DNA from: a virus
Virus record (IMG/VR): IMGVR_UViG_3300022933_000019
Span: 1 to 27,809 of that record
Direction: 5' to 3' (one strand)
DNA length: 27,809 nucleotides
Numbering within the stretch: the stretch's first letter is position 1; each line of letters opens with the position of its first letter. A model generated the notes under the pieces. It saw only the letters and a program-made list of their open reading frames with translations, searched no databases and was not told the DNA's origin. Position numbers and translations under genes: made by a program. Below are positions 2,138 to 20,592 of the stretch, piece after piece.

Positions 2138-3368
2138 AGAAGTAATACTTAATCTATTCTTAAGAGACAGGCATCTCTATGAAAAGTATTATAAGTATAT
2201 TAACTTACAGTATATTAAAAATAACTTTACTAATCTTTACAAGTTATTTGTAGTGCTGCACCAACATTATGAATCAAGTAAAGATGTAACAGTTAGTCAA
2301 GTAGACTTTGAGTTAGTATACAATAGTAGTTATCTCTTAGAGAATAGCGAAAGACAAGAGCTAACTACCATACTAACTAGAATATATAGTTTAGAATGTG
2401 TAGAAACTAATGCAATTAAATATCTTAATGACCACAAAAAAAGATGTATAGCAGGTGAGTTAGCTAAGATAGCACTAGACGTAGAAGATGGTACAGCTAA
2501 GGCAGAAGAACTAACTAATAAAATGAAAGAGTTAGATACATCTGTTGATGTCAAAGAAGAAATTGATTTTGTTAATATGGATTTAGATTACTTATATGAA
2601 TCTCAAATACAATCACCAGGGTTAAGATGGAGACTACCTTGGCTTAACAAATCATTAGGTTCATTACGTAAAGGAGACTTTGGTTTTATCTTTGCTAGAC
2701 CAGAGACAGGCAAGACTACCTTCCTTGCAAGTGAGATAACACACATGCTTACACAAACTGATGGTGATATACTATGGTTTAACAACGAAGAACAAGGTAA
2801 TAAAGTAGGAGTCAGATGTCATCAGGCTATGTTAGGAGCAACCATTAAAGATTTGTTTGGTAACAATAGAAAAGCTAACAAAGAAAAATATGAAAAGGTA
2901 ACACAGAATCGTATTAAAATATTAAACTTAGAAGATAGTGGTAGTACCCAGCGTATAGAATATATACTTAATGAAACTAAACCTGCACTTATTATCTTTG
3001 ACCAGATAGATAAAATACGAGGGTTCAAAGCAGATAGATATGACTTACAACTTAAATCTTTATATCAATGGGCTAGAGAGTTAGCTAAGAAATATGCACC
3101 AGTCATTGCAGTGTCGCAAGCTGGTGGTACTGGTGAAGGTAAGATATGGTTAACAATGGATGATGTTGATAGCAGCAAGACTGCTAAGCAAGGTGAAGCT
3201 GACTGGATACTAGGCATTGGAGTAGAACAAAACAATACAAGCAATCAAAGATTTTTAAATATAAGTAAAAATAAATTACTTGGTGATGAAGATACACTGC
3301 CTGACCTACGTCATGGCAATCAACAAGTTTTAATTAAACCAGATATAGCGAGGTACATAGAGATATGA
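2130..3368 (+). CDS. Replicative DNA helicase (DnaB / T7 gp4 helicase family)
   Basis: A 412-aa RecA-fold hexameric helicase. Walker A is ARPETGKTT (residues 189-197; the usual first Gly is Ala), the catalytic Glu is in WFNNEEQG (about 220), Walker B is LIIFDQID (Asp 291) and the sensor-like Gln is in VIAVSQAGG (about 330). The N-terminal 150 residues are helical and resemble the DnaB N-terminal/linker region rather than a primase. It would unwind the fork with the separate primase encoded just upstream (8-base overlap) and the polymerase just downstream (4-base overlap, ATGA), so the three are likely translated as a unit. Confidence 0.9.
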   Translation: MIEEVILNLFLRDRHLYEKYYKYINLQYIKNNFTNLYKLFVVLHQHYESSKDVTVSQVDFELVYNSSYLLENSERQELTTILTRIYSLECVETNAIKYLNDHKKRCIAGELAKIALDVEDGTAKAEELTNKMKELDTSVDVKEEIDFVNMDLDYLYESQIQSPGLRWRLPWLNKSLGSLRKGDFGFIFARPETGKTTFLASEITHMLTQTDGDILWFNNEEQGNKVGVRCHQAMLGATIKDLFGNNRKANKEKYEKVTQNRIKILNLEDSGSTQRIEYILNETKPALIIFDQIDKIRGFKADRYDLQLKSLYQWARELAKKYAPVIAVSQAGGTGEGKIWLTMDDVDSSKTAKQGEADWILGIGVEQNNTSNQRFLNISKNKLLGDEDTLPDLRHGNQQVLIKPDIARYIEI

Positions 3369-4525
3369 GTTACTTAGTATTAGATGTAGAAACAACTATC
3401 AGTAATAAAGGTAATCCTTTTGACCAAACAAATAAACTTTGTATGGTTGGGTTACTCACGGCTAACGAGAAAATGATATACGATATAGAATACTCCGTTG
3501 ACCCCTACAAGGAATCACTAAAGCAAATCCAATTAGCCGTGGATAAGTGCGATGTGCTTGTAGGGTTTAACATTAAGTTTGATTTACATTGGCTAGCTAG
3601 ATATGGTATTACATTTGCTAATAAACGTATATGGGATTGTCAACTGACAGAGTTTATTTTACGCAGCCAGGTCAACAGTTATCCATCATTGGATAAGGTA
3701 TCTGAGTACTATGAGTTAGGTAGTAAGCTTGATGAAGTTAAAGAAAACTATTGGAAGAATGGTATTGATACAGACAAAGTACCTAAAGATATATTAATAG
3801 AATACTTAGAAAAAGATATAGAACTAACTGAACAAGTAATGTCTATGCAAATGAAAGAGTTAGCCGACCAGCCTCAACTGAGGCGGCTAATCTCTTTACA
3901 CAATCAAGACTTAATTGGTTTACAAGAAATGGAATTCAATGGTCTTAAGTATGAATACAATACATCACAAATTTTAGGAGATGAATTAGATGAACAAATC
4001 AGCAAACTTAATGAGAAGCTTTTTAGTTATCATGCTTACGATAATTTTAATCCCAATTCTGGGGAGCATCTTTCTGCTTTTCTTTACGGTGGGTTTATTA
4101 AAGAGCGTTTTCAACGCCCCATCGGACATTATAAAACTGGCACACATGCAGGCGAAGTTAAGTATAAATGGGATGAGCGACATAAAGAATTCCCACAAAA
4201 AATAAAACCAATAGCAGGTACTGAGTTAAAGAAAGAAGGTTTCTATAGTACTAACGAAGATACATTGCGTAAACTAAAAGGTAATGAAGAAGCTAAAAGT
4301 ATATTGCAAACATTACTAACTCGTGCTACACTAGAGAAAAGAAAGACTACATATTACCACGGGTTAGTCAAACTAATTGATGAGATGAACTGGAAAAAAG
4401 ATACTATACATGGTCAACTCAATCAATGTGTAGCAAAAACGGGTAGGTTAAGTAGCAGTAAGCCTAACTTACAAAACTTTGATGGAGAGATTAAGTCTCT
4501 CTTTACAACTAGATACGGAGAATAA
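3365..4525 (+). CDS. Family A DNA polymerase, N-terminal part: 3'-5' exonuclease and start of polymerase domain
   Basis: A 386-aa protein with all three proofreading motifs: Exo I LVLDVETT (Asp 7, Glu 9), Exo II VGFNIKFDLHWL (Asp 73) and Exo III YLEKD (Tyr 147, Asp 151). It continues into the polymerase domain with FNPNSGEHLSAFLYGG and, near the end, KTGRLSSSKPNLQN, the conserved segment before motif A. The ORF stops at TTRYGE, just before where the palm should continue. The missing half (motifs A, B and C) is the separate ORF at 4752. The two halves together give about 623 aa, close to T7 polymerase (704 aa), so they presumably assemble into one enzyme. Hairpins lie inside at 3503-3565 and 3860-3890. 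Confidence 0.9.
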   Translation: MSYLVLDVETTISNKGNPFDQTNKLCMVGLLTANEKMIYDIEYSVDPYKESLKQIQLAVDKCDVLVGFNIKFDLHWLARYGITFANKRIWDCQLTEFILRSQVNSYPSLDKVSEYYELGSKLDEVKENYWKNGIDTDKVPKDILIEYLEKDIELTEQVMSMQMKELADQPQLRRLISLHNQDLIGLQEMEFNGLKYEYNTSQILGDELDEQISKLNEKLFSYHAYDNFNPNSGEHLSAFLYGGFIKERFQRPIGHYKTGTHAGEVKYKWDERHKEFPQKIKPIAGTELKKEGFYSTNEDTLRKLKGNEEAKSILQTLLTRATLEKRKTTYYHGLVKLIDEMNWKKDTIHGQLNQCVAKTGRLSSSKPNLQNFDGEIKSLFTTRYGE

Positions 4526-4751: not shown

Positions 4752-5465
4752 ATGATACTTAACGCAGATGCAAAAGCTCTTGAATGGGTATGTGCATCCT
4801 TCTTATCACAAGATAAGACAGCACATCAAGAGATACATAATGAGATTGACCAGCATACTGACAATCAAAATAGATTTGGATTACCATCTAGATTAATAGC
4901 TAAGACATTTGTCTTCAGACTAATCTATGGTGGTAGTGCATACAGTTATGCTATGGACAATAACTTTAAAGATATTGGTAATGAAGACTATTGGCAAAAC
5001 GTAATTGATGAGTTCTATAAAAAGTATACAGGTCTTAAAGATTGGCATGACAAGATATTTGCAGATGCCAAACGAGACCTTAGGCTTACTATGCCTACAG
5101 GTAGAACTTACTTATACCCTACAGAAATAAACAGTATGGGTAAAGTAAAATATCCACGCACCCGAATCCTCAACTACCCAGTGCAAGGATTGGGTGCTGA
5201 CTTAATGGCTATAGCTAGAGTATCATTACGTAATAGATTAAAAGAAACAGAAGGTATTAAGATAATTAATACTGTACACGATTCAATTATGCTTGACTTT
5301 GACCCATCAATATGTTATACTAATAGTATAGTAGAAACAGTTAAGCAATGTTTTGAAGATATTCCAAGTAACTTTGCTAAGTTATTTGGTAAAGAATTCA
5401 ACCTTCCTATGAGGGTTGATATACAACTAGGTACCAATTGGGGTAACCTAGAAGACGTAACTTAA
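4752..5465 (+). CDS. Family A DNA polymerase, C-terminal part: palm and fingers with motifs A, B and C
   Basis: A 237-aa protein that begins almost on motif A: NADAKALEWVCAS gives the catalytic Asp 6 and Glu 11. Motif B (O helix) is RLIAKTFVFRLIYGG, with Arg 47, Lys 51, Phe 55 and Tyr 59 in the RxxxKxxxFxxxYG pattern. Motif C is NTVHDSIMLDF with His 176 and catalytic Asp 177; the usual next Glu is Ser. Phe 55 corresponds to Phe762 of E. coli Pol I, a form associated in viral surveys with lytic phages. It cannot work without the exonuclease/thumb half at 3365-4525. An AGGA site precedes the ATG. A 12-bp hairpin lies inside at 5158-5197. Confidence 0.9.
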   Translation: MILNADAKALEWVCASFLSQDKTAHQEIHNEIDQHTDNQNRFGLPSRLIAKTFVFRLIYGGSAYSYAMDNNFKDIGNEDYWQNVIDEFYKKYTGLKDWHDKIFADAKRDLRLTMPTGRTYLYPTEINSMGKVKYPRTRILNYPVQGLGADLMAIARVSLRNRLKETEGIKIINTVHDSIMLDFDPSICYTNSIVETVKQCFEDIPSNFAKLFGKEFNLPMRVDIQLGTNWGNLEDVT

Positions 5466-7559: not shown

Positions 7560-8323
7560 AGAAACATTTAGTAATAGGAGATACCCAGGTTAAGCCTGGG
7601 ATTTCCCTATCTTATTTAACATGGATAGGTAGGTACATTGTTGACAAACAACCAGATGTAATTGTAATGATTGGTGACTTTGCAGACATGCCTAGCTTAT
7701 CATCCTACGATGTAGGTAAAAAATCTTTCGAAGGTAGAACATACAAAGCAGATATTAAAGCTGCTCACAAGGGCATGGAAGCATTGCTAGCACCTATGAA
7801 AGCACTTAACAAAAGACTAGCTAAAGCTAAGAAGAAGTTATACAAACCTAAGATGGTACTAACTATGGGTAACCATGAGCAACGTATTAACACAGCCATT
7901 GAGTATGACAGAAAGCTAGATGGTCTTATATCATTTGATGATTTACAATACAAAGAAGCAGGATGGGATGTAATTCCATTCTTAGAAGTAACTAGTATTG
8001 ATGGTGTTGCATACAGTCATTACTTTGCTAGTGGTGTTATGGGTAGACCAGTAACATCAGCACGTGCTTTACTTACCAAGAAGCATATGTCATGTGTAGC
8101 TGGGCATCAGCAAGGACATGATATAGCATACGGTATGAGAGCAGATGGTAAACAGATGACATCTATCATTAGTGGTAGTTGTTATCTACATGATGAGTCA
8201 TACTTATCTCATCAAACTAATCAACATTGGAGAGGATTGTACATGTTACATAATGTAGAGGATGGTTCATTTGATGAATGTGCAATACCATTACATTATT
8301 TAAAAAGAAAGTATAGGAAATAG
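7556..8323 (+). CDS. Calcineurin-like metallophosphoesterase
   Basis: A 255-aa phosphoesterase with the family's metal-binding blocks: GDTQ (residues 8-11, Gln in place of the common His), MIGDFADM (Asp 41), MGNHEQR (Asn 106, His 107, Glu 108), AYSHY (His 155) and AGHQQGHD (His 184, His 188). These enzymes cleave phosphomono- or diesters; the substrate is unknown, with nucleic acid ends or nucleotides plausible given the neighbouring nucleases. The variant GDTQ is, from memory, common in marine phage members. The gene overlaps the previous stop as ATGA. A perfect CCCAGG/CCTGGG hairpin lies just inside the 5' end (7584-7600). Confidence 0.88.
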   Translation: MKKHLVIGDTQVKPGISLSYLTWIGRYIVDKQPDVIVMIGDFADMPSLSSYDVGKKSFEGRTYKADIKAAHKGMEALLAPMKALNKRLAKAKKKLYKPKMVLTMGNHEQRINTAIEYDRKLDGLISFDDLQYKEAGWDVIPFLEVTSIDGVAYSHYFASGVMGRPVTSARALLTKKHMSCVAGHQQGHDIAYGMRADGKQMTSIISGSCYLHDESYLSHQTNQHWRGLYMLHNVEDGSFDECAIPLHYLKRKYRK

Positions 8324-8324
8324 C

Positions 8325-8353
8325 TTGACTTTCTCTGTAATATATGCTATAAT
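8325..8353 (+). promoter_or_regulatory. Sigma70-type promoter giving a leaderless mRNA
   Basis: The -35 box TTGACT (8325-8330), a 17-nt spacer and a perfect -10 box TATAAT (8348-8353), with TGC immediately upstream as an extended -10. The expected start, seven bases past the -10, is 8360, the A of the next gene's ATG. There is no ribosome-binding site between the -10 and the ATG. It starts directly after the phosphoesterase stop and probably drives the DUF3310 gene and the following small genes, including the tmRNA-like RNA. Confidence 0.85.
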
Positions 8354-8359
8354 ATTATT

Positions 8360-8575
8360 ATGACAGCAACTAAAAAACAAGTAGGTGGTAAACATTATAC
8401 TAACTATAAGATACAACCTATAGAATTTATAACAAGTAATAACATTGGTTTCATTGAAGGTAATGTTATTAAGTATCTATTAAGATTTAAAGAAAAGAAT
8501 GGTATAGAAGATATAGATAAAGCTATACATTACCTAGAACTTTTAAAAGAAATATATTACAATGGAAAAACTTAA
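8360..8575 (+). CDS. DUF3310 family protein, 71 aa, predicted leaderless start
   Basis: The sequence QVGGKHYTNYKIQPIEFI, then GNVIKYLLRFKEKNG and IEDIDKAIHYLELL, matches the short DUF3310 family found in many phages, sometimes annotated as a nucleotide kinase-like protein. The biochemical role is unsettled. The ATG coincides with the predicted transcription start of the promoter at 8325-8353 and has no Shine-Dalgarno site. Its 3' end overlaps the next ORF by 14 bases. Confidence 0.85.
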   Translation: MTATKKQVGGKHYTNYKIQPIEFITSNNIGFIEGNVIKYLLRFKEKNGIEDIDKAIHYLELLKEIYYNGKT

Positions 8576-8708
8576 AACAAAAAGAATTTGCAATAAATGC
8601 AAAGAACCTGCTAAAATCTGGGATAAAAGTCAGTGGTGGTGTTCTATTGATAGTAGCATGGGTAGTTACAACATGCGTGGTTATTGCATAAGGGAGAAAA
8701 AGAAATGA
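8562..8708 (+). CDS. Small zinc-ribbon-like protein, 48 aa
   Basis: The ORF starts MEKLKTKRICNKCKEPAKIW. Cys 10 and 13 (CNKC), Cys 27 (WWC) and a late Cys (GYC) make a likely four-ligand zinc site, and both ends are Lys-rich, which fits nucleic-acid binding. The start is inside the end of the DUF3310 gene, and its TGA overlaps the next ATG (ATGA). No specific family is recognised. Confidence 0.6.
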   Translation: MEKLKTKRICNKCKEPAKIWDKSQWWCSIDSSMGSYNMRGYCIREKKK

Positions 8709-8794
8709 AAAATTTATTTACAACAACCATAGGTCATCTAGTTATAATAGCTGTTCTTATTGGTTTATATGCTATAGTGGTATTTACATTATAA
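8705..8794 (+). CDS. Tiny hydrophobic membrane peptide, 29 aa
   Basis: The ORF encodes MKNLFTTTIGHLVIIAVLIG and nine more hydrophobic residues, a single predicted transmembrane helix (about 9-28). The ATG overlaps the previous stop (ATGA), and AGGGAG (8691-8696) lies about eight bases upstream. It ends seven bases before the tmRNA-like RNA. Small size makes coding status uncertain; coupling and the ribosome site favour it. Confidence 0.5.
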   Translation: MKNLFTTTIGHLVIIAVLIGLYAIVVFTL

Positions 8795-8801
8795 CAAAAT
8801 A

Positions 8802-8879
8802 GGGGTAGCTTTGGTTTCGACAACATGTAACATTAATTTAGCATGTTGGACGCGAGTTCGATTCTCGCCTACTCCACCA
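8802..8879 (+). ncRNA. tmRNA tRNA-like domain without an mRNA-like domain (mini-tmRNA)
   Basis: A 78-nt RNA with the hallmarks of the tmRNA tRNA-like domain. The 7-bp acceptor stem GGGGTAG (8802-8808) pairs with CTACTCC (8869-8875), followed by discriminator A and an encoded CCA (8877-8879). Its third pair is G-U, the alanine identity element. The reduced D-arm reads TTTGGTTTCGAC, matching the tmRNA 'GGNUUCGAC' signature, and GGACG precedes a T-arm GCGAG-TTCGATT-CTCGC, as in bacterial tmRNA. Between them, where tmRNA carries pseudoknots and the tag reading frame, is only a hairpin: AACATG (8822-8827) with CATGTT (8842-8847) and 14 nt between. TAA/TTA pairs within those 14 nt would extend it and leave a 7-nt loop CATTAAT. 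The order is 5' half then 3' half, so it is not the permuted alphaproteobacterial gene. No resume codon or tag is present. Confidence 0.85.
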
Positions 8880-8930
8880 ACATAGGAGCAGATATGAACT
8901 ATAGAAACCTAAATTTACAAAGGATTAATT

Positions 8931-9092
8931 ATGCCAGGAACTAATGGTACAAATGATTACGAAATTCCTGGTGCAAAGTTAAAGACTAGTGTACCAAATG
9001 ATAAATACAAGAAAGGGTGGGACAGAATCTTTGGTTCCAAGCCTAATGATAAACAATTTGATAAGGTCAAAAAGACTAAAGGTCGGTCATAA
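8931..9092 (+). CDS. Hypothetical small basic protein, 53 aa
   Basis: The ORF begins MPGTNGTNDYEIPGAKLKTS and ends KKTKGRS. It is Gly/Asn/Lys-rich with little hydrophobic content, probably flexible. AAAGGA at about 8919-8924 lies seven bases before the ATG, and the next gene starts two bases after its stop. It is the first clear gene after the tmRNA-like RNA. No family is recognised. Confidence 0.6.
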   Translation: MPGTNGTNDYEIPGAKLKTSVPNDKYKKGWDRIFGSKPNDKQFDKVKKTKGRS

Positions 9093-9094
9093 CT

Positions 9095-9286
9095 ATGGCT
9101 CTATCATTCAAAGAAGTCTGTGAAGAATTAACTAAGCTAGATGAAACAACTCTTCTTGAAGTACTTGACATTTCATCAGAAGATATAGTTAATCACTTTC
9201 AAGACAAAATCGAGGACAATCTCGAAGAACTATCTAATGATTTAGATGAACATACTAAACAATTAGACATATTTAACGAAGAATAA
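9095..9286 (+). CDS. Hypothetical acidic helical protein, 63 aa
   Basis: The ORF starts MALSFKEVCEELTKLDETTL and is strongly acidic, with amphipathic helices and a heptad-like C-terminal part (IEDNLEELSNDLDEHTKQLDIF), perhaps a short coiled coil. It lies between the 53-aa ORF and the reductase. I recall similar ORFs next to phage reductases or packaging genes but cannot name a function. Codon use resembles its neighbours. Confidence 0.65.
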   Translation: MALSFKEVCEELTKLDETTLLEVLDISSEDIVNHFQDKIEDNLEELSNDLDEHTKQLDIFNEE

Positions 9287-9298
9287 CAGGAGATAGCA

Positions 9299-11161
9299 TT
9301 GGATATTTACCAATCGGTAATAGCATCATCAAGATACGCACGTTTTATACCAGAACTTAAGCGACGTGAGACATGGGAAGAAACAGTAGACAGGATGGTT
9401 ACATACCTTAAGTCTAAAAACAAAGGATTAGACAAAGAGTTTAAGGATATACGTGAAGCAATACTTAATTTAGAAATCATGCCTTCTATGAGGCTTATGA
9501 TGTCAGCAGGAGAAGCATGTGAAAGGGACAACATTGCTGCTTATAATTGCTCTTATTTGGCTATTAATAATAAACGAGCTTTTAGTGAAACATTATACAT
9601 TTTAATGAATGGAACAGGAGTTGGTTTTAGTTGTGAGAGACAAGAGATTAGTAAACTACCTAGCATACCAGAGGTACTTAGTAACACTGATGATACTATT
9701 GTTGTTGGTGACAGTAAGCTTGGCTGGGCGAAGTCGTTTAAGAAACTATTATCTAGTCTATGGGAAGGAGATATACCCAAGATTGACTACTCTAATGTTA
9801 GACCAGCAGGTGCTAGGCTAAAGACATTTGGTGGTAGAGCTAGTGGTCCAGAGCCATTAAAGAGATTGTTTGATTTCGTAGTAGAGTCATTTAATCATGC
9901 ACAAGGTCGTAAACTAACATCATTAGAAGTCCATGATATTATTTGTATGGTAGGAGAAATTGTAGTCGTTGGTGGTGTTAGACGTTCTGCCCTTATCTCA
10001 CTATCAAATCTTACAGATAAACGCATGAGAGAGGCTAAAATGGGTGCCTGGTACAATGATTTTGCATGGCGAGGGTTAGCTAATAACTCAGTTGCTTATA
10101 CAGAGAAGCCTGATATGGAAACATTCATGGATGAGTGGGTATCCTTAGTTAAATCTAAGTCAGGTGAACGTGGTATATTCAATAGAGTTGCTGCGCAGAA
10201 ACAAGCTGCTAAATGGAAAAGACGTGATGAAACATTGACTTACGGAACAAATCCTTGCAGCGAGATAATTTTACGTGATAAACAATTCTGTAACCTAACA
10301 GAAGTAGTTGTAAGAAATGGAGATACTAAAGAGAGTCTACTTAACAAAGTGCGACTAGCTACAATACTTGGTACATTACAATCTAATCTAACTAACTTTC
10401 AGTTCTTGTCTCATGAATGGACTAAGAACACAGTAGAAGAAAGATTACTTGGTGTATCACTAACAGGTATTATGGATGCTAAAATAACATCTAATCCTGA
10501 CCCTAAATTTTTAGAGGAGATGAGAGACCATGCTAGAAGAACCAATCACAAATACGCAGACAAACTTGACATACCAAGAAGTACAAGTATTACGTGTGTT
10601 AAACCTTCTGGGACTGTTTCTCAGCTTGTTGACAGTGCTAGCGGCATTCATGCTAGGCATGCTGAGCAATATATAAGAACTATCCGTATGGATAAGAAAG
10701 ACCCTATCTATGAGTTTCTTAAAGGTCAGGGTGTAACAGTAGAAGATGAGCAGTTTAGACCTGATTCAACAGCAGTATTTAGTTTCCCAATAAAAGCTCC
10801 TAAAGGTGCTGTTACTCGTAATGATATGACAGCCATAGAGCAGTTAGAGAACTGGTTAATCTATCAGAGACACTGGTGTGAACATAAACCATCAGTAACT
10901 ATCAGTGTAAAAGAGGATGAGTGGATGGATGTAGGTGCATGGGTATGGAAATACTTTGATGAGATATCAGGTATATCTTTCTTACCTTATAGTGACCACT
11001 CTTATCAACAAGCTCCTTATCAAGACTGTACTGTAGAGGAATACAAAGAGTTACTTGATAAAACACCTAAGAATATTAAATGGGATTCGTTTATTGAAAC
11101 TGATGATAACACAGAAGGTGCTCAAACACTAGCGTGTACAGGAGGTTCTTGTGAGATTTAG
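9299..11161 (+). CDS. nrdJ: Adenosylcobalamin-dependent (class II) ribonucleotide reductase
   Basis: A 620-aa monomeric-type class II reductase that converts ribonucleoside triphosphates to deoxy forms using vitamin B12. Active-site residues match Lactobacillus leichmannii RTPR: Cys 84 (YNCSYL), Asn 318, Cys 320, Glu 322 (NPCSEI) and Cys 331 (FCNLTEV), with the 11-residue gap between the thiyl-radical Cys and its partner preserved. The C-terminal redox pair is CTGGSCEI (Cys 613 and 618). It is about 120 residues shorter than RTPR (739). The start is TTG at 9299, five bases after AGGAG. It supplies dNTPs alongside the nucleases that recycle host DNA. No thioredoxin or glutaredoxin is seen nearby, so host reductant is probably used. 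Confidence 0.92.
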   Translation: MDIYQSVIASSRYARFIPELKRRETWEETVDRMVTYLKSKNKGLDKEFKDIREAILNLEIMPSMRLMMSAGEACERDNIAAYNCSYLAINNKRAFSETLYILMNGTGVGFSCERQEISKLPSIPEVLSNTDDTIVVGDSKLGWAKSFKKLLSSLWEGDIPKIDYSNVRPAGARLKTFGGRASGPEPLKRLFDFVVESFNHAQGRKLTSLEVHDIICMVGEIVVVGGVRRSALISLSNLTDKRMREAKMGAWYNDFAWRGLANNSVAYTEKPDMETFMDEWVSLVKSKSGERGIFNRVAAQKQAAKWKRRDETLTYGTNPCSEIILRDKQFCNLTEVVVRNGDTKESLLNKVRLATILGTLQSNLTNFQFLSHEWTKNTVEERLLGVSLTGIMDAKITSNPDPKFLEEMRDHARRTNHKYADKLDIPRSTSITCVKPSGTVSQLVDSASGIHARHAEQYIRTIRMDKKDPIYEFLKGQGVTVEDEQFRPDSTAVFSFPIKAPKGAVTRNDMTAIEQLENWLIYQRHWCEHKPSVTISVKEDEWMDVGAWVWKYFDEISGISFLPYSDHSYQQAPYQDCTVEEYKELLDKTPKNIKWDSFIETDDNTEGAQTLACTGGSCEI

Positions 11162-14866: not shown

Positions 14867-17800
14867 TAGAAATATTCCTTATTTTTTAATCGTTCTTTTC
14901 TGTACTCAAGTACATCGTTTTCTTTATTAGAAGCATTAGTCTGTTTCATAATCATAAGTATATGGTCTACACCTTCTTTTTGAGTTTGATTACCATTGTT
15001 TTTAAATATCTCTTGTAAGTTTTCAAACTCTTTTATTTTTTCAGGAGAAACTCTTTGAGTATTTGTTGCCTGTTCTACAGCTTTAGTATAAATATTATCA
15101 ATTAAAGTACCTGAACCTCTACGTTGATACTGTGTCATTAAGTTTAAAAGGTTAAATGCTCTTTCTTCAGATAAGAAATCAGACCCAGTTAAAATAGCTT
15201 TTAATCCTCTATGTACCTCACCTATTTGTTCTACTGTTGGAGTCTCACCTAAACTTAATACCATTGCTTTATAGTATTGTTTTGCTAATTGTTTATCTGC
15301 TTCTTTAGCATCTTTAGCATTAGCAAAGTTTTCAAATATTAATCTTTCTGCTTTACTTTGTACAGAGGTCCAACCAAATAAATATTGTTCTGCTTTAGTA
15401 TAGTTTTGTCCAGATACTTGCCCTAGTTTAGAACGCTTATCTCCAAGCAAAGCTACAGTAACAGCTCTTGCTAATCCACTTGTAAGACCTGTAAGCTTAG
15501 CTAATGCTTTATAAGAACCTAATACTTGTTCTTCTGTTTGAGTAACATCTGATATAGCAGGAGACCAAATAGCTGAAAACATATCAGTTACTCCATCTTT
15601 ACCAAATATATCTTTTAGTAACTGACCTGAAGGACCAAATGAAACATTACCACCTTCACCATCATTCATTATATATCTATATATTGCACCATAACCACCA
15701 AAGGGCATATCAGCACCCATAGGTGAGAACCTTAAATTAAACTCTAAGTCTGACCTGAGTAAGTTACCTTCTTCATCATATGTAGGAAATGCAGCATCAG
15801 CCATACCATTTATAACTATATTAAGTAAAGATAAGTCATCTAAGTCATTTACTATTTCTTGTCCTTTCTCTTCACCAAATGCTTGACTAAATAGTTCTAG
15901 TAATAAACCTCCCATACCATACCAAACACCACCTCTAACTCCATACACCATTGTATTCCAACCTGTTAGAGCTGCCATTTGTTTAGGATTAAATGGAGTA
16001 GCAGATGTATTCCATAGTCCTTCTGATGATTTAAATATAAAGGAACTAAACTGTGCAAAAGTAGCTAGTATAGGTACACGTTGTATACCCATTTCACCAT
16101 ACTTATCCATAGAACCAGCTAACTTACGAGCACCTGTATTAATTTCTTCTAATGCTTTAGCGCCTCTCCAGTCTTTACCTGGATTTTTTTGTACCCAATC
16201 TATTCTAGCAGCCATCCAAGTATTAATCCTACCCATTAACTCACCTTGTTCAAAACCTACCTGACCTACTTTCTCATTCATTTTACCAAATACTCTAGTA
16301 TCTCTACGAGACTGTAGTTTTTTAGGTCCTTGACTAAAGAAGTTTTTAGCAAAGGTATGGTCAGCTATATGAAAGAAACCTGAGTTTTTACCATTAGCAA
16401 TAATTAAAGCTAAATCTTTTTTAGACAAGTCTAGAATATTATCTGTTCTGCCTAGTATACTAGCATCATTTTCAAGTAACCAATCATATCCAGCACCCAG
16501 TTCTTTAGCATACTTTTTAGAATTTATATTATTTCTTGTTATCATATGTACTATGTAAGCAGACTGACTAGCTGTTGTAATATAGTTGTTTAATGTTTGT
16601 TTATTAAATCCTGCATAACCGCCTACTGCTAGATGTCCCCATGAGTTAGCTGTTTGTATAGCCCAATGCCACCAGGGTATTTGCCATTGAATTTTTAATG
16701 TAGATGTAGTTCTCATTAAAAAGTTATGAGCTAAACTAGGTCTTTTAGATATTGCATATGTTGCAGGTAAAGCTTTTTCAATAGCTTTAGATATTATAGG
16801 CATTCTATCTTGTAAAGTTTTTGCTTTTGTTTCACCATACTCAGCAAGTCTACCAGCAATTTTTTGCAAAGACCTACCTATCCAGTTTGGAACATGTCCT
16901 TGGTCTAGTACCATAATTTGTTGTAGTTCTTTATTTGCATTAGCTATTATTGCTCTACGTTCTTTAGGGTCTAATGTATCTTTCCATTGAACGTCTGCTA
17001 CCATACTTCCTACTTCATCTCTAGACTTAGGAAATTCTGTTAAACCACCAACAATTTTATCTTTATAAGTATCTATCCATAATTGTTTATACTCATTTAA
17101 TAGTGGAGCCATATAAGCTCTACTACCATTAGATTCTGTTGCCATAACAAAAGATGCAAAAGTATCTTCATAAACAGCTTTAGCTACAGGTAAATCAGTT
17201 CTTTGTTTTGATGATGACATAGCTTCTTCTCTAAGAGCATTAGCTTCTAGTCTATCTCCAGACCTTAATTCATCAGCTATTCTTATTTCAAAAAACTGTC
17301 CATCTGTATTAATATTAGACTCTTTAGCCCAAGCATCTAAGTTATTTCTTAACCATCTTTGAGCACCTATTTCTGTTGGAGCTACTGCAATAGCTCTAGC
17401 ATAACCACTATTTTGCATTTCAAGTATCCAAGATTCTCTAGTACCACCCTCTTGTACATGCTTTTCAAATGTTCTACTAATACCATTAACAGTTACTTCC
17501 TTAGGATACATTCTTACAAAGTTAGTTCCCTTCATAATAGATGGCATGTGTCCTGTACGACTTCTTAAAACTTGTTGTGGTAAAGCTTGTGCTTCTTGAT
17601 TTCTAAAAATACCATACTCAAATACACGACCTTGTGAATCTGTATAGTTTTTAGCAAGTCTATATATTACTATATTTGTATTGCCTTTTTCATTGTGTAA
17701 AGTTTTTTTATTTTCTAATACAAAGTTAGCTTGTGATGTAGGACTTTCTACAGGTCTACCCTTTTCAAAATCCCATACCTCTCTTGGATGTACTTGATTT

Positions 17801-20592
17801 AAATTACCAGCTTCATCTTTTATTTGAGGAAACTCAAAGTCATCTTTAGCTACTACTCGTTGTGTAATAGGTTTACCATTTTCACCCATCATAGGATTAC
17901 CTTGAGAATCTCTTTGAACAACTACAAAAGATTCTTTATACCCAAGTTTAACTAGTCTATCAAGTTCAAACAAGTTCTCTGCTTGAAATCTAAATCTATT
18001 TAATCCTCTAGTTTTAGTAATAATATTTTGATATAAGTAAGCTGTTTCTAAAGGTAAATCTGGTCTACCTAACATTGTTGTTATATCATCTATAGTTAAA
18101 TAATCTTTATAGTCTAAAGATTTTTTATATAGTAAAGCCATATCATTTCTACCTGACTGGTCTAATTTATTAATATCTTTTTGTAAGTTTGTTAAAGTAT
18201 CTTTAAACCAAGCTTCACTACGTAATCCAGCCATTTGCATTTTAGATTCAAACTTAGCATTTATAGCACCAAACTGAGCTAAACCTTTCCATAACCAAGT
18301 ACTACCAAATAAAGTTTGTGTAAATAAATTACTTCTTTTAGGAGGATTATTAAAACCATCTGTTATTTGTCTAGCTGAGTCATAGTATTCTGCTTTTCTA
18401 TTAATTCTAACTCTAAGATTAGGTTCTTGAGATACTTTACCTTCTAACTCTTTAGCTACTTGTATTTCTTTTTCTAGGTTTCTAATTTCTACTTCACGTA
18501 ACCCAGCTCTTACTTTAGCTACTCGTAACCATTTTTTAGGAGTAACTCCTTGTAGTTCAGCTTCAGCTTTAACTCTTTCTTTACTAAGTATAATCTTTCT
18601 AGCTGATGCAGACTCGGCAAGTAAATTAGTTTTATTAGCTTCTAGGTTTGCTAGAGAATCTACTGCTTTTCTAAATAATGGATATTGTTGTAAAGCTTCA
18701 ATACTATCAAAAGTTTTTCTTACTGCTCCATTACCATCTACATGTTCTATAACTAACTGAAAATCTGATTTACCTGACTCTTTAATCTTTTCTAAAATAA
18801 CAGTAATTGCATCTGATGCTTCTGCTACACTCTTATAGTTTGTTCTATCATTCTTACTAAATACTATAGATGTATCTAAACCAGTTCCTGTATCATAAAA
18901 AATACTATCTGAGTTTCTTTGATATATATCTACACCTGCAGATATATCATCTAATACATTATCTGTATCTCTAATCCATGCTTTTCTTTTTTCTGGAAAC
19001 AAATGTCCTTCATTAGTAAAGTAAGATTGTTGCATAGTTCTATAGAGTTTTTCTTGTAAACTCCATTCATGCATATCTAAATGCCTACCTTTATTAAGTA
19101 TACCTCCAATGATAGGAGCAAAGGCTAAACCTATAATTGATGTTCTTTTAACATCTACTGATGCTGCTATTTTACCAGAGTAATCTGCTATAATATCTAC
19201 AGTTAGTTTATTGCCTTTTTCAGAGTTAGCTATTCTTATGTTTTGATAAGGACTATCTAATTTTATATTATTAGTTTCATTAATTACATTAAGAGGAGAT
19301 ATAACATTTCCTTTTGGTTTACCTGGTTCAGCTGCATCTAAAGCTTCTAAGAACCTAGAAACTGTTTTATCATATCCTGCTTTATCTAAATCATATCTTC
19401 TTTTAGTAGTTCTAGCAATAGACTTACCTTTTTTAGCACCAGCCAAAACAAAGAAGGATGCTATTTCAAGAGGTACTTTGGCTGCTTCTGGATTTGTTGA
19501 ATTTATTTTTTTAGCTACCCATAAAAAACCTTCATCAATAGTTTCAAAAGTACTCATAGTAATAGAATCTTGAGTTATGTAATTATCAAACTCTTCTTTA
19601 GTAGCTACTAAGCCACCCACTCTCATTACTGTATGCCAAAAGTCTCTCCAATTAAGAGCTATATCACCTACTATACCTACACCTTGATAGTCATTTAAAA
19701 AACCATATACTTTTTCAGGCTCTTGAGCATATAATTTTTCTACATACCTTCTCATCTCAGTCATGTTTTTTATAGCTCTTATTTTTTCATCATCAGTTAA
19801 AAATAAGTCACCAAAAGCATCTAATGCTTTACTATCAGGATTAGCTCCTTCAAGTCTAGCTATTGGAGTACTACCTAATATACCTATATACATAGGTAAT
19901 TCAGCAATAAAAGCATTAAATAGTTGTGTTGCATTAACACCTAGACCATAGAAAAACCCATCATTTTCTTCTAGTTCTTCATCTGACATTTCAAAAAACT
20001 TAGTATACCCTGGACTTAAATCAGCCATAGCTTTTAGTAGTTTACTTGCTTGAGAAGTGTCTACATTTACTCCAGGATTATTTTCTGAAAAGTACATCAT
20101 ATTTTTACGTAGACTATGACCTACTTTTAAAGATTCTTCAACTAACTTTTGTTTATCCATACTCATGTATAGATTTTCTATTTCATCATCTGTGCTAGTT
20201 GCTGCTTCTTCTGCAGAAATAGTTTCAACATACTTATCTCTTATAGACATAGGAGGATTATATCCATAAGTATATGCAGTTAGTAAACCTTTTTTATCTT
20301 CTGCAGAAATTTCATCATCATCTATAAGAGCAGTAATTGTTTGCTTAACAGATTCATCTTCTTCTTGTGCAATTTGCTGTTGAGTAAGAGCAAGTAAAGA
20401 AGAGTTACCCATTACAGCATACTCTTCCATTGTTTCATCAAACTTATTCATAGTATCTTCTGCATTTAATTCAGCAGAATAATAAGCATCATGTTGTATT
20501 TGTTCTAAATCTTCTAGACTAGTAACAACACCTGCAGAATAAGGAGGTATTTCTTGCCCAGGTACAAAACCATTGTCTATTTTTTCTTCCAT
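14866..20592 (-). CDS. Giant internal virion protein, T7 gp16-like ejection protein, 1908 aa
   Basis: The largest gene in the window. The N-terminus (MEEKIDNGFVPGQEIPPYSA) is followed by acidic helical sequence, without the transglycosylase domain found at the start of T7 gp16 (1318 aa). Predicted hydrophobic parts occur near residues 385 (EIASFFVLAGAKKG), 490 (IIGLAFAPIIGGIL) and in the C-terminal third (QIPWWHWAIQTANSWGHLAV; GGVWYGMGGLLLELFSQAF), consistent with insertion into the host envelope during DNA ejection. Size and order after a gp14-like gene support the call. It would leave the capsid with the gp14- and gp15-like proteins to build the trans-envelope channel. Confidence 0.75.
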   Translation of the reverse strand: MEEKIDNGFVPGQEIPPYSAGVVTSLEDLEQIQHDAYYSAELNAEDTMNKFDETMEEYAVMGNSSLLALTQQQIAQEEDESVKQTITALIDDDEISAEDKKGLLTAYTYGYNPPMSIRDKYVETISAEEAATSTDDEIENLYMSMDKQKLVEESLKVGHSLRKNMMYFSENNPGVNVDTSQASKLLKAMADLSPGYTKFFEMSDEELEENDGFFYGLGVNATQLFNAFIAELPMYIGILGSTPIARLEGANPDSKALDAFGDLFLTDDEKIRAIKNMTEMRRYVEKLYAQEPEKVYGFLNDYQGVGIVGDIALNWRDFWHTVMRVGGLVATKEEFDNYITQDSITMSTFETIDEGFLWVAKKINSTNPEAAKVPLEIASFFVLAGAKKGKSIARTTKRRYDLDKAGYDKTVSRFLEALDAAEPGKPKGNVISPLNVINETNNIKLDSPYQNIRIANSEKGNKLTVDIIADYSGKIAASVDVKRTSIIGLAFAPIIGGILNKGRHLDMHEWSLQEKLYRTMQQSYFTNEGHLFPEKRKAWIRDTDNVLDDISAGVDIYQRNSDSIFYDTGTGLDTSIVFSKNDRTNYKSVAEASDAITVILEKIKESGKSDFQLVIEHVDGNGAVRKTFDSIEALQQYPLFRKAVDSLANLEANKTNLLAESASARKIILSKERVKAEAELQGVTPKKWLRVAKVRAGLREVEIRNLEKEIQVAKELEGKVSQEPNLRVRINRKAEYYDSARQITDGFNNPPKRSNLFTQTLFGSTWLWKGLAQFGAINAKFESKMQMAGLRSEAWFKDTLTNLQKDINKLDQSGRNDMALLYKKSLDYKDYLTIDDITTMLGRPDLPLETAYLYQNIITKTRGLNRFRFQAENLFELDRLVKLGYKESFVVVQRDSQGNPMMGENGKPITQRVVAKDDFEFPQIKDEAGNLNQVHPREVWDFEKGRPVESPTSQANFVLENKKTLHNEKGNTNIVIYRLAKNYTDSQGRVFEYGIFRNQEAQALPQQVLRSRTGHMPSIMKGTNFVRMYPKEVTVNGISRTFEKHVQEGGTRESWILEMQNSGYARAIAVAPTEIGAQRWLRNNLDAWAKESNINTDGQFFEIRIADELRSGDRLEANALREEAMSSSKQRTDLPVAKAVYEDTFASFVMATESNGSRAYMAPLLNEYKQLWIDTYKDKIVGGLTEFPKSRDEVGSMVADVQWKDTLDPKERRAIIANANKELQQIMVLDQGHVPNWIGRSLQKIAGRLAEYGETKAKTLQDRMPIISKAIEKALPATYAISKRPSLAHNFLMRTTSTLKIQWQIPWWHWAIQTANSWGHLAVGGYAGFNKQTLNNYITTASQSAYIVHMITRNNINSKKYAKELGAGYDWLLENDASILGRTDNILDLSKKDLALIIANGKNSGFFHIADHTFAKNFFSQGPKKLQSRRDTRVFGKMNEKVGQVGFEQGELMGRINTWMAARIDWVQKNPGKDWRGAKALEEINTGARKLAGSMDKYGEMGIQRVPILATFAQFSSFIFKSSEGLWNTSATPFNPKQMAALTGWNTMVYGVRGGVWYGMGGLLLELFSQAFGEEKGQEIVNDLDDLSLLNIVINGMADAAFPTYDEEGNLLRSDLEFNLRFSPMGADMPFGGYGAIYRYIMNDGEGGNVSFGPSGQLLKDIFGKDGVTDMFSAIWSPAISDVTQTEEQVLGSYKALAKLTGLTSGLARAVTVALLGDKRSKLGQVSGQNYTKAEQYLFGWTSVQSKAERLIFENFANAKDAKEADKQLAKQYYKAMVLSLGETPTVEQIGEVHRGLKAILTGSDFLSEERAFNLLNLMTQYQRRGSGTLIDNIYTKAVEQATNTQRVSPEKIKEFENLQEIFKNNGNQTQKEGVDHILMIMKQTNASNKENDVLEYRKERLKNKEYF

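Follow-up and report, generated by a model that had tools for sequence, protein, structure and literature searches.

A 78-nt phage tmRNA reduced to its tRNA-like domain belongs to a large class of phage RNAs that may interfere with ribosome rescue

The viral DNA analyzed here (IMG/VR record IMGVR_UViG_3300022933_000019, positions 1 to 27,809; hereafter, the window) encodes at positions 8802-8879 of its plus strand a complete 78-nt tmRNA that has been reduced to the tRNA-like domain (TLD). At least 72 distinct RNAs following the same pairing plan, nearly all of them in phage contigs, define a class of TLD-only tmRNAs, and we lean towards the view that the window RNA would serve as an active decoy against host trans-translation, a ribosome-rescue system that almost all bacteria possess and that is an antibiotic target.

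A cmscan search of the whole 27.8-kb record returned a single match to the Rfam tmRNA model RF00023, located at 8802-8879 on the plus strand and scoring 72.6 bits (E 1.1e-26) against a model cut-off of 47 bits. The match spans model positions 1-374 of 374 and is flagged as not truncated, with 304 mid-model consensus positions skipped, in agreement with the original prediction of a phage tmRNA from which the message part is absent. The two TLD halves lie within the 78 nt in the normal order, the 5' half being encoded before the 3' half, and the RNA is thus not a permuted tmRNA. The 5' strand of the acceptor stem (GGGGUAG, 8802-8808, with G3 at 8804) forms 7/7 pairs with 8869-8875, within a 3' segment (8869-8879) made up of CUACUCC, with U70 at 8873, followed by A73 and the encoded CCA. 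The D-loop, read from the sequence as CUUUGGUUUCGAC, occupies 8809-8821 and carries the GGUUUCGAC signature. This region of tmRNA is the part contacted by SmpB in known structures. The GGAC junction, extending into GGACG, and a T arm with 5/5 pairs (GCGAG-UUCGAUU-CUCGC) fill 8848-8868. Just 26 nt separate UUCGAC from GGACG, and they hold neither a tag reading frame with its stop codon nor the ring of pseudoknots, but one short P2 hairpin with 6/6 pairs (AACAUG-14 nt-CAUGUU, 8822-8847). Folded alone, the RNA adopts the acceptor/P2/T-arm form with an energy of -23.7 kcal/mol, compared to -15.0 +/- 2.8 kcal/mol in shuffled sequences (z = -3.1).

All the tmRNA hallmarks expected of a TLD (7-bp acceptor stem, G3-U70, GGNUUCGAC D-loop, T arm and CCA) are therefore found at exactly the positions originally predicted, as is the AACATG/CATGTT hairpin in place of the pseudoknots and tag frame. 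Two details of that prediction did not survive. The proposed 7-nt loop CATTAAT requires a weak UAA/UUA extension around a bulged G, the actual apical loop being 14 nt long, and the UUA assigned to an anticodon position was rejected, as comparison between phages shows no tRNA-like conservation of the loop. The RNA is not a canonical tRNA either, having no D stem, a long P2 loop and no 7-nt anticodon-type loop. ARAGORN called neither a tRNA nor a tmRNA here, probably because the program expects a message domain.

Beyond the RNA, the window encodes a primase, a DnaB helicase, a two-frame DNA polymerase, an exonuclease, a phosphoesterase, a ribonucleotide reductase, and head and tail proteins. The ribonucleotide reductase shares 95% identity with its counterpart in MEP401, a Methylophilales phage of the Zobellviridae whose host is an OM43 bacterium. 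The window itself comes from a marine member of the Zobellviridae closely related to MEP401 and its fellow OM43 phage MEP402. The two polymerase frames (3365-4525 and 4752-5465) are separated by a 73-aa ORF, and MEP401 is annotated likewise (gp13, gp15). Identity to MEP401 is 94% over window positions 8201-8772 and 92% over 8900-9400, and between these flanks lie 127 bp, including the RNA, in the window versus 287 bp in MEP401, where the site is occupied by most of a 127-aa gene (gp23). A 29-aa remnant of a gp23-like gene that keeps its first codons (8705-8794, plus strand) ends just 5' of the RNA, and synteny resumes 3' of it with a 53-aa homolog of MEP401 gp24 (8931-9092, plus strand). The comparison with MEP401 and MEP402 indicates that the RNA has replaced coding sequence. 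Upstream of the small-gene operon containing the RNA lies a promoter-like site, TTGACT-17-TATAAT with a TG before the -10 element (extended -10; 8325-8353, plus strand), which agrees with 11 of 12 consensus positions; it is a consensus match only, and the total number of such sites in the region does not exceed that in shuffled sequences.

The RNA was not found at the equivalent site in MEP401, MEP402 or five other near relatives (L007, L008, L009, L012 and L013). Absence from close relatives had been put forward as grounds for dismissing the RNA. The absence itself is real, but copies in other contigs and in unrelated phages point to a mobile cassette rather than to an artefact. A pattern scan of IMG/VR recovered the identical RNA in L005, L087, L088, L091 and L093 and a diverged copy in L089, and later scans added L156, L182, L207 and L225, for exact or diverged copies in 10 other contigs. 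In the three distinct sequences of this subfamily 54/54 pairs are retained, and at five pairs both bases have changed; this signal is lost when the partner strands are slid against each other. Double-sided changes affect two pairs of the acceptor stem and two of P2 (three sequences), and a T-arm C-G pair is replaced by U-A in L225. Conservation of all pairing, originally asserted without relatives in hand, thus holds when relatives are compared, and compensatory stem changes are present in related phages.

Movement of the RNA between phages is visible both within this subfamily and beyond it. L087 and L088 are 91-92% identical to the window over 6-7 kb, with zero differences in the 478 nt (8602-9079) that have the RNA at their center. 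Such local identity suggests recombination around the RNA. L089 and L225 are contigs of other phages, with a different helicase and a YqaJ-like recombination nuclease (read by eye from translations), and share one gene-content group apart from the window clade. In the clade comprising L156, L182, L207 and L225 (e.g., L225 7992-8160), a tRNA-Tyr gene starts 6 nt past the last base of the RNA, leaving 5 nt between them, and this unit occurs in all four contigs. Flank drift between L225 and L207 predicts 5.9 changes in the 78-nt RNA, where none is seen; the effect is weaker in two other pairs. L164 and L166 carry near-identical RNAs in unrelated flanks, so that the RNA alone aligns, a sign of horizontal movement.

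The extent of the class was assessed by scanning viral contigs for TTCGAC and GGACG/T-arm elements 5-36 nt apart, which yielded 33 and 68 contigs, and 37-67 nt apart, which yielded 23 more. Requiring at least 6/7 acceptor and 4/5 T-stem pairs, 79 sequences passed a first pairing filter; L154 was dropped on inspection as not tmRNA-like and sequences with gaps above 36 nt were left out, leaving 72 distinct TLD-only RNAs, 71 from IMG/VR phage contigs and one (L287) from a genome collection. This number is a lower bound, as variants such as the GGACC form of phage LuckySocke escape the patterns. The carrier contigs fall into about 49-50 gene-content groups sharing fewer than two genes, or 33 if one shared gene suffices to join them, an estimate given that many contigs are fragmentary. 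Several leads were discarded along the way: L002, the lone result of the first viral pattern, is a chance match within a coding region; the acceptor stems of L090, L094 and L095 are unpaired; and BLAST of the 78-nt RNA in phage records returned only pieces shared by tRNAs and tmRNAs, mostly the T arm.

The patterns impose TTCGAC, GGACG and GTTCRA, and these positions are uninformative on conservation. Elsewhere, constraint is strong. Among 36 representatives (80% clustering on stems) no acceptor or T-stem pair is broken in any sequence, individual positions show as many as six pair types, and P2 pairs are formed in 92-100%, against a null of about 45%. The first P2 pair is formed in 72/72 RNAs through six pair types, and P2 averages 5.3 pairs in the 79 sequences versus 1.6 in shuffled loops. 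The alanine identity elements G3-U70 and A73 are invariant (72/72), including in the 66/66 RNAs recovered with a pattern that did not require them; G1-C72 and G2-C71 are likewise invariant, and acceptor pairs 4-7 are variable. A GG just 5' of UUCGAC, which is not part of the pattern, is present in 68/72 relatives. Loop lengths fall in clusters of 12-19 and 25-35 nt and hence do not form a smooth decay series.

Most loops of 28-32 nt (L092, L125, L138, L152, L195, L215 and others) share a motif 3' of P2, approximately URAARCC..GAAGUG or CCGCAYGCGG, possibly left over from pseudoknot PK1, and the class seems to run from this remnant to a bare tetraloop hairpin. A stop triplet (UAA/UAG) acting as resume codon was also considered for these loops and discarded: such triplets occur in 82% of loops versus 69% of shuffled ones, an excess explained by the purine-rich UAAA-like motif after P2. 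RF00023 scores above cut-off in 41/42 carrier records, each match being TLD-only, and no full-length tmRNA above cut-off accompanies them in these 42 records. Automatic annotation probably mislabels the class. At TLD-only RNAs, ARAGORN reports a tRNA-Glu in L145 (8486-8576, minus strand), a tRNA-Arg in L169 (1899-1981, plus strand) and a tmRNA with an odd 30-aa tag in L216 (5493-5835, plus strand).

The class is restricted almost entirely to phages. An equivalent pattern, run against 84,980 genomes of bacteria and archaea, gave 38 hits, with L287 as the sole sequence to pass the pairing filter; the same pattern gave 39 distinct sequences from 64 viral contigs. In the 37 other genome hits the acceptor stem is not formed, and most are the 3' ends of normal full-length tmRNAs that happen to have a TTCGAC upstream. 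L287 (4765-4844) lies in the Bacillota metagenome-assembled genome Th196P3bin37, next to genes whose proteins weakly match phage families of unknown function, and is perhaps a prophage or phage contig. The occurrence of TLD-only RNAs in dozens of unrelated phages and almost no bacteria suggests that many phages use them to interfere with ribosome rescue. No SmpB was found in the 58 records searched, and the partner protein must therefore be that of the host.

TLD-only RNAs are also present in five cultured Streptomyces phages (L289, L290 and L292-L294), as four distinct sequences identified in a follow-up BLAST search with concatenated 5' halves. In LuckySocke, GiJojo, pSt2308 and BRock they are well paired and lie inside tRNA gene clusters, where they are not annotated as such; LuckySocke (17977-18057) and GiJojo (17025-17105) carry the same RNA. 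The Alone3 copy has two T-stem mismatches and may be decaying. Acceptor stems of the cultured copies show compensatory differences, with G3-U70 kept in all. A GiJojo hypothetical protein (gene 44) is called over the RNA.

RNAs of this kind are already known from one published phage example. Mycobacterium phage DS6A encodes a TLD-only tmRNA reported to inhibit endogenous tmRNA in Escherichia coli (Mao et al., 2009, as cited in PMC4131195 and PMC11915505). By these published accounts, the DS6A RNA, like that of the window, is phage-encoded, extends little beyond the TLD and has no tag frame, although phage type and host differ. To that single example we add 71 distinct phage-contig sequences and four from cultured Streptomyces phages; we found no description of the breadth of the TLD-only form across phages in the literature. 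A survey of 97,179 sequences lists nine as "Standard, no CDS" and describes mitochondrial tmRNAs and plastid tmRNAs of about 65 bp without a CDS (PMC11915505). The jakobid and oomycete mitochondrial tmRNAs (RF02544) and two plastid tmRNAs of about 65 bp resemble the window RNA in keeping the TLD and lacking the tag frame and pseudoknots, but organellar tmRNAs are often permuted and kept by cells with an imported SmpB, whereas the RNA described here is phage-borne, unpermuted and without SmpB. Full-length phage tmRNAs (Streptomyces phage Annadreamy and others, mycobacteriophage Bxz1, and the two-piece tmRNA of Melnitz) are also phage-encoded and have the same TLD, but include a message domain with a tag and can support trans-translation, which is impossible for the window RNA. 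The TLD fragment crystallized with SmpB and EF-Tu, as presented in PMC3968760, shares the anatomy of the window RNA and is delivered to stalled ribosomes, the difference being that it is a laboratory piece and the window RNA a natural gene.

We infer the following course of events. The RNA would be transcribed with an early or middle small-gene operon and trimmed like a tRNA; the tRNA-Tyr gene located 5 nt downstream of the RNA in the L225 clade fits tRNA-type processing. Host AlaRS would then charge it through G3-U70 and A73, which constitute the identity rule for this enzyme (PMC3968760), as the invariance of these positions suggests. Host SmpB would bind the D-loop and elbow, and EF-Tu-GTP would bring the RNA to ribosomes that have stalled at the end of an mRNA. 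Such delivery does not require the message domain, as seen in the crystal structure of a stalled ribosome bound to alanyl-TLD, SmpB and EF-Tu (Neubauer et al., 2012, as presented in PMC3968760). With no resume codon or tag frame, at most one alanine could be added and nothing could be decoded, and the RNA would tie up SmpB and the A site and keep host tmRNA out, consistent with the strong tmRNA inhibition reported for the DS6A-like RNA in E. coli. Phages might gain by sparing nascent chains from tagging, or their mRNAs from tmRNA-linked decay. Plain titration of SmpB leaves the invariant G3-U70 unexplained, which favors a charged RNA that goes to the ribosome.

For such a charged RNA, a dead-end competitor is the preferred reading and a tag-less rescuer its main rival. 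The charged TLD and host SmpB might take over the nascent chain with one alanine and eject the broken mRNA, with another factor (ArfA/RF2, ArfB, RQC or drop-off) freeing the ribosome and leaving phage proteins untagged. In this case too, the invariance of G3-U70 and A73 speaks for the importance of the charged form, and mitochondrial and two plastid tmRNAs are conserved without a tag frame, the mitochondrial ones with imported SmpB (PMC11915505, PMC3985003). That organellar TLD-only tmRNAs are kept together with SmpB hints that a useful role, as opposed to an inhibitory one, is open to such RNAs, which counts against a decoy, as does the fact that some phages encode complete tmRNAs. On the other hand, after translocation the A site has to receive the resume codon (PMC8363625), and a rescuer of this kind would leave it without a codon; moreover, the only test on record for a phage TLD-only RNA showed inhibition (PMC4131195). 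We regard tag-less rescue as rather unlikely. Sequestration of another TLD client (AlaRS, EF-Tu or an RNA-processing or decay enzyme such as RNase R), or action as a regulatory tRNA mimic, appears less probable still: nearly all known tmRNA partners bind the TLD (PMC3968760), but an ordinary tRNA-Ala would serve most of these purposes as well, and the fact that the tmRNA-specific D-loop and GGAC junction have been retained points to SmpB.

The two remaining explanations fare worse. Since ssrA is a common integration site, the RNA might be a relic of an attachment site or of transduction, a piece of host ssrA acquired through integration or imprecise excision, as the original prediction also allowed, and a tyrosine integrase is present in 6 of the 58 records searched (6/50 other carriers). 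None was found, however, in the window, MEP401, MEP402, the three window-clade contigs L087, L088 and L091, LuckySocke or GiJojo, nor in 44/50 other carriers, and the window RNA is not merely a duplicated ssrA 3' end: both halves are there, fully paired, and in unrelated phages, with strong covariation and conservation, clustered loop lengths (12-19 and 25-35 nt) instead of a continuum, and, at the MEP401/402 site, a coding gene. DS6A itself is listed as integrating at tRNA-Lys, not at tmRNA (PMC10865867). This origin is already largely refuted and very improbable. It is about as hard to credit, and if anything harder, that the RNA is half of a two-part molecule and pairs with a tag-bearing piece encoded at another locus, in the manner of permuted two-piece tmRNAs; the OM43 phage Melnitz does have a two-piece tmRNA (PMC9004378), but such molecules split the TLD halves over their pieces, whereas here a single 78-nt strand is closed by a short P2, and no second tmRNA piece scored above cut-off in the carriers searched. 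The decoy, one of the options raised at the outset, is the one backed by the published DS6A work, in so far as PMC4131195 and PMC11915505 relate it.

The TLD-only tmRNA, with about 70 distinct versions in around fifty gene-content groups of phages and hardly any in bacterial genomes, is more than an oddity: it is probably a means by which phages counter or bypass ribosome rescue. A standard annotation tool overlooks these genes or labels them as tRNAs, and the cultured carriers named here (LuckySocke, GiJojo, pSt2308 and BRock) are phages in which their function can be tested. Tentatively, and with a little less assurance than for the window RNA alone, we propose that they form a large, horizontally moving class of anti-trans-translation RNAs that would depend on alanylation and act in dozens of phage lineages with different hosts as charged dead-end substrates, replacing host tmRNA on stalled ribosomes.
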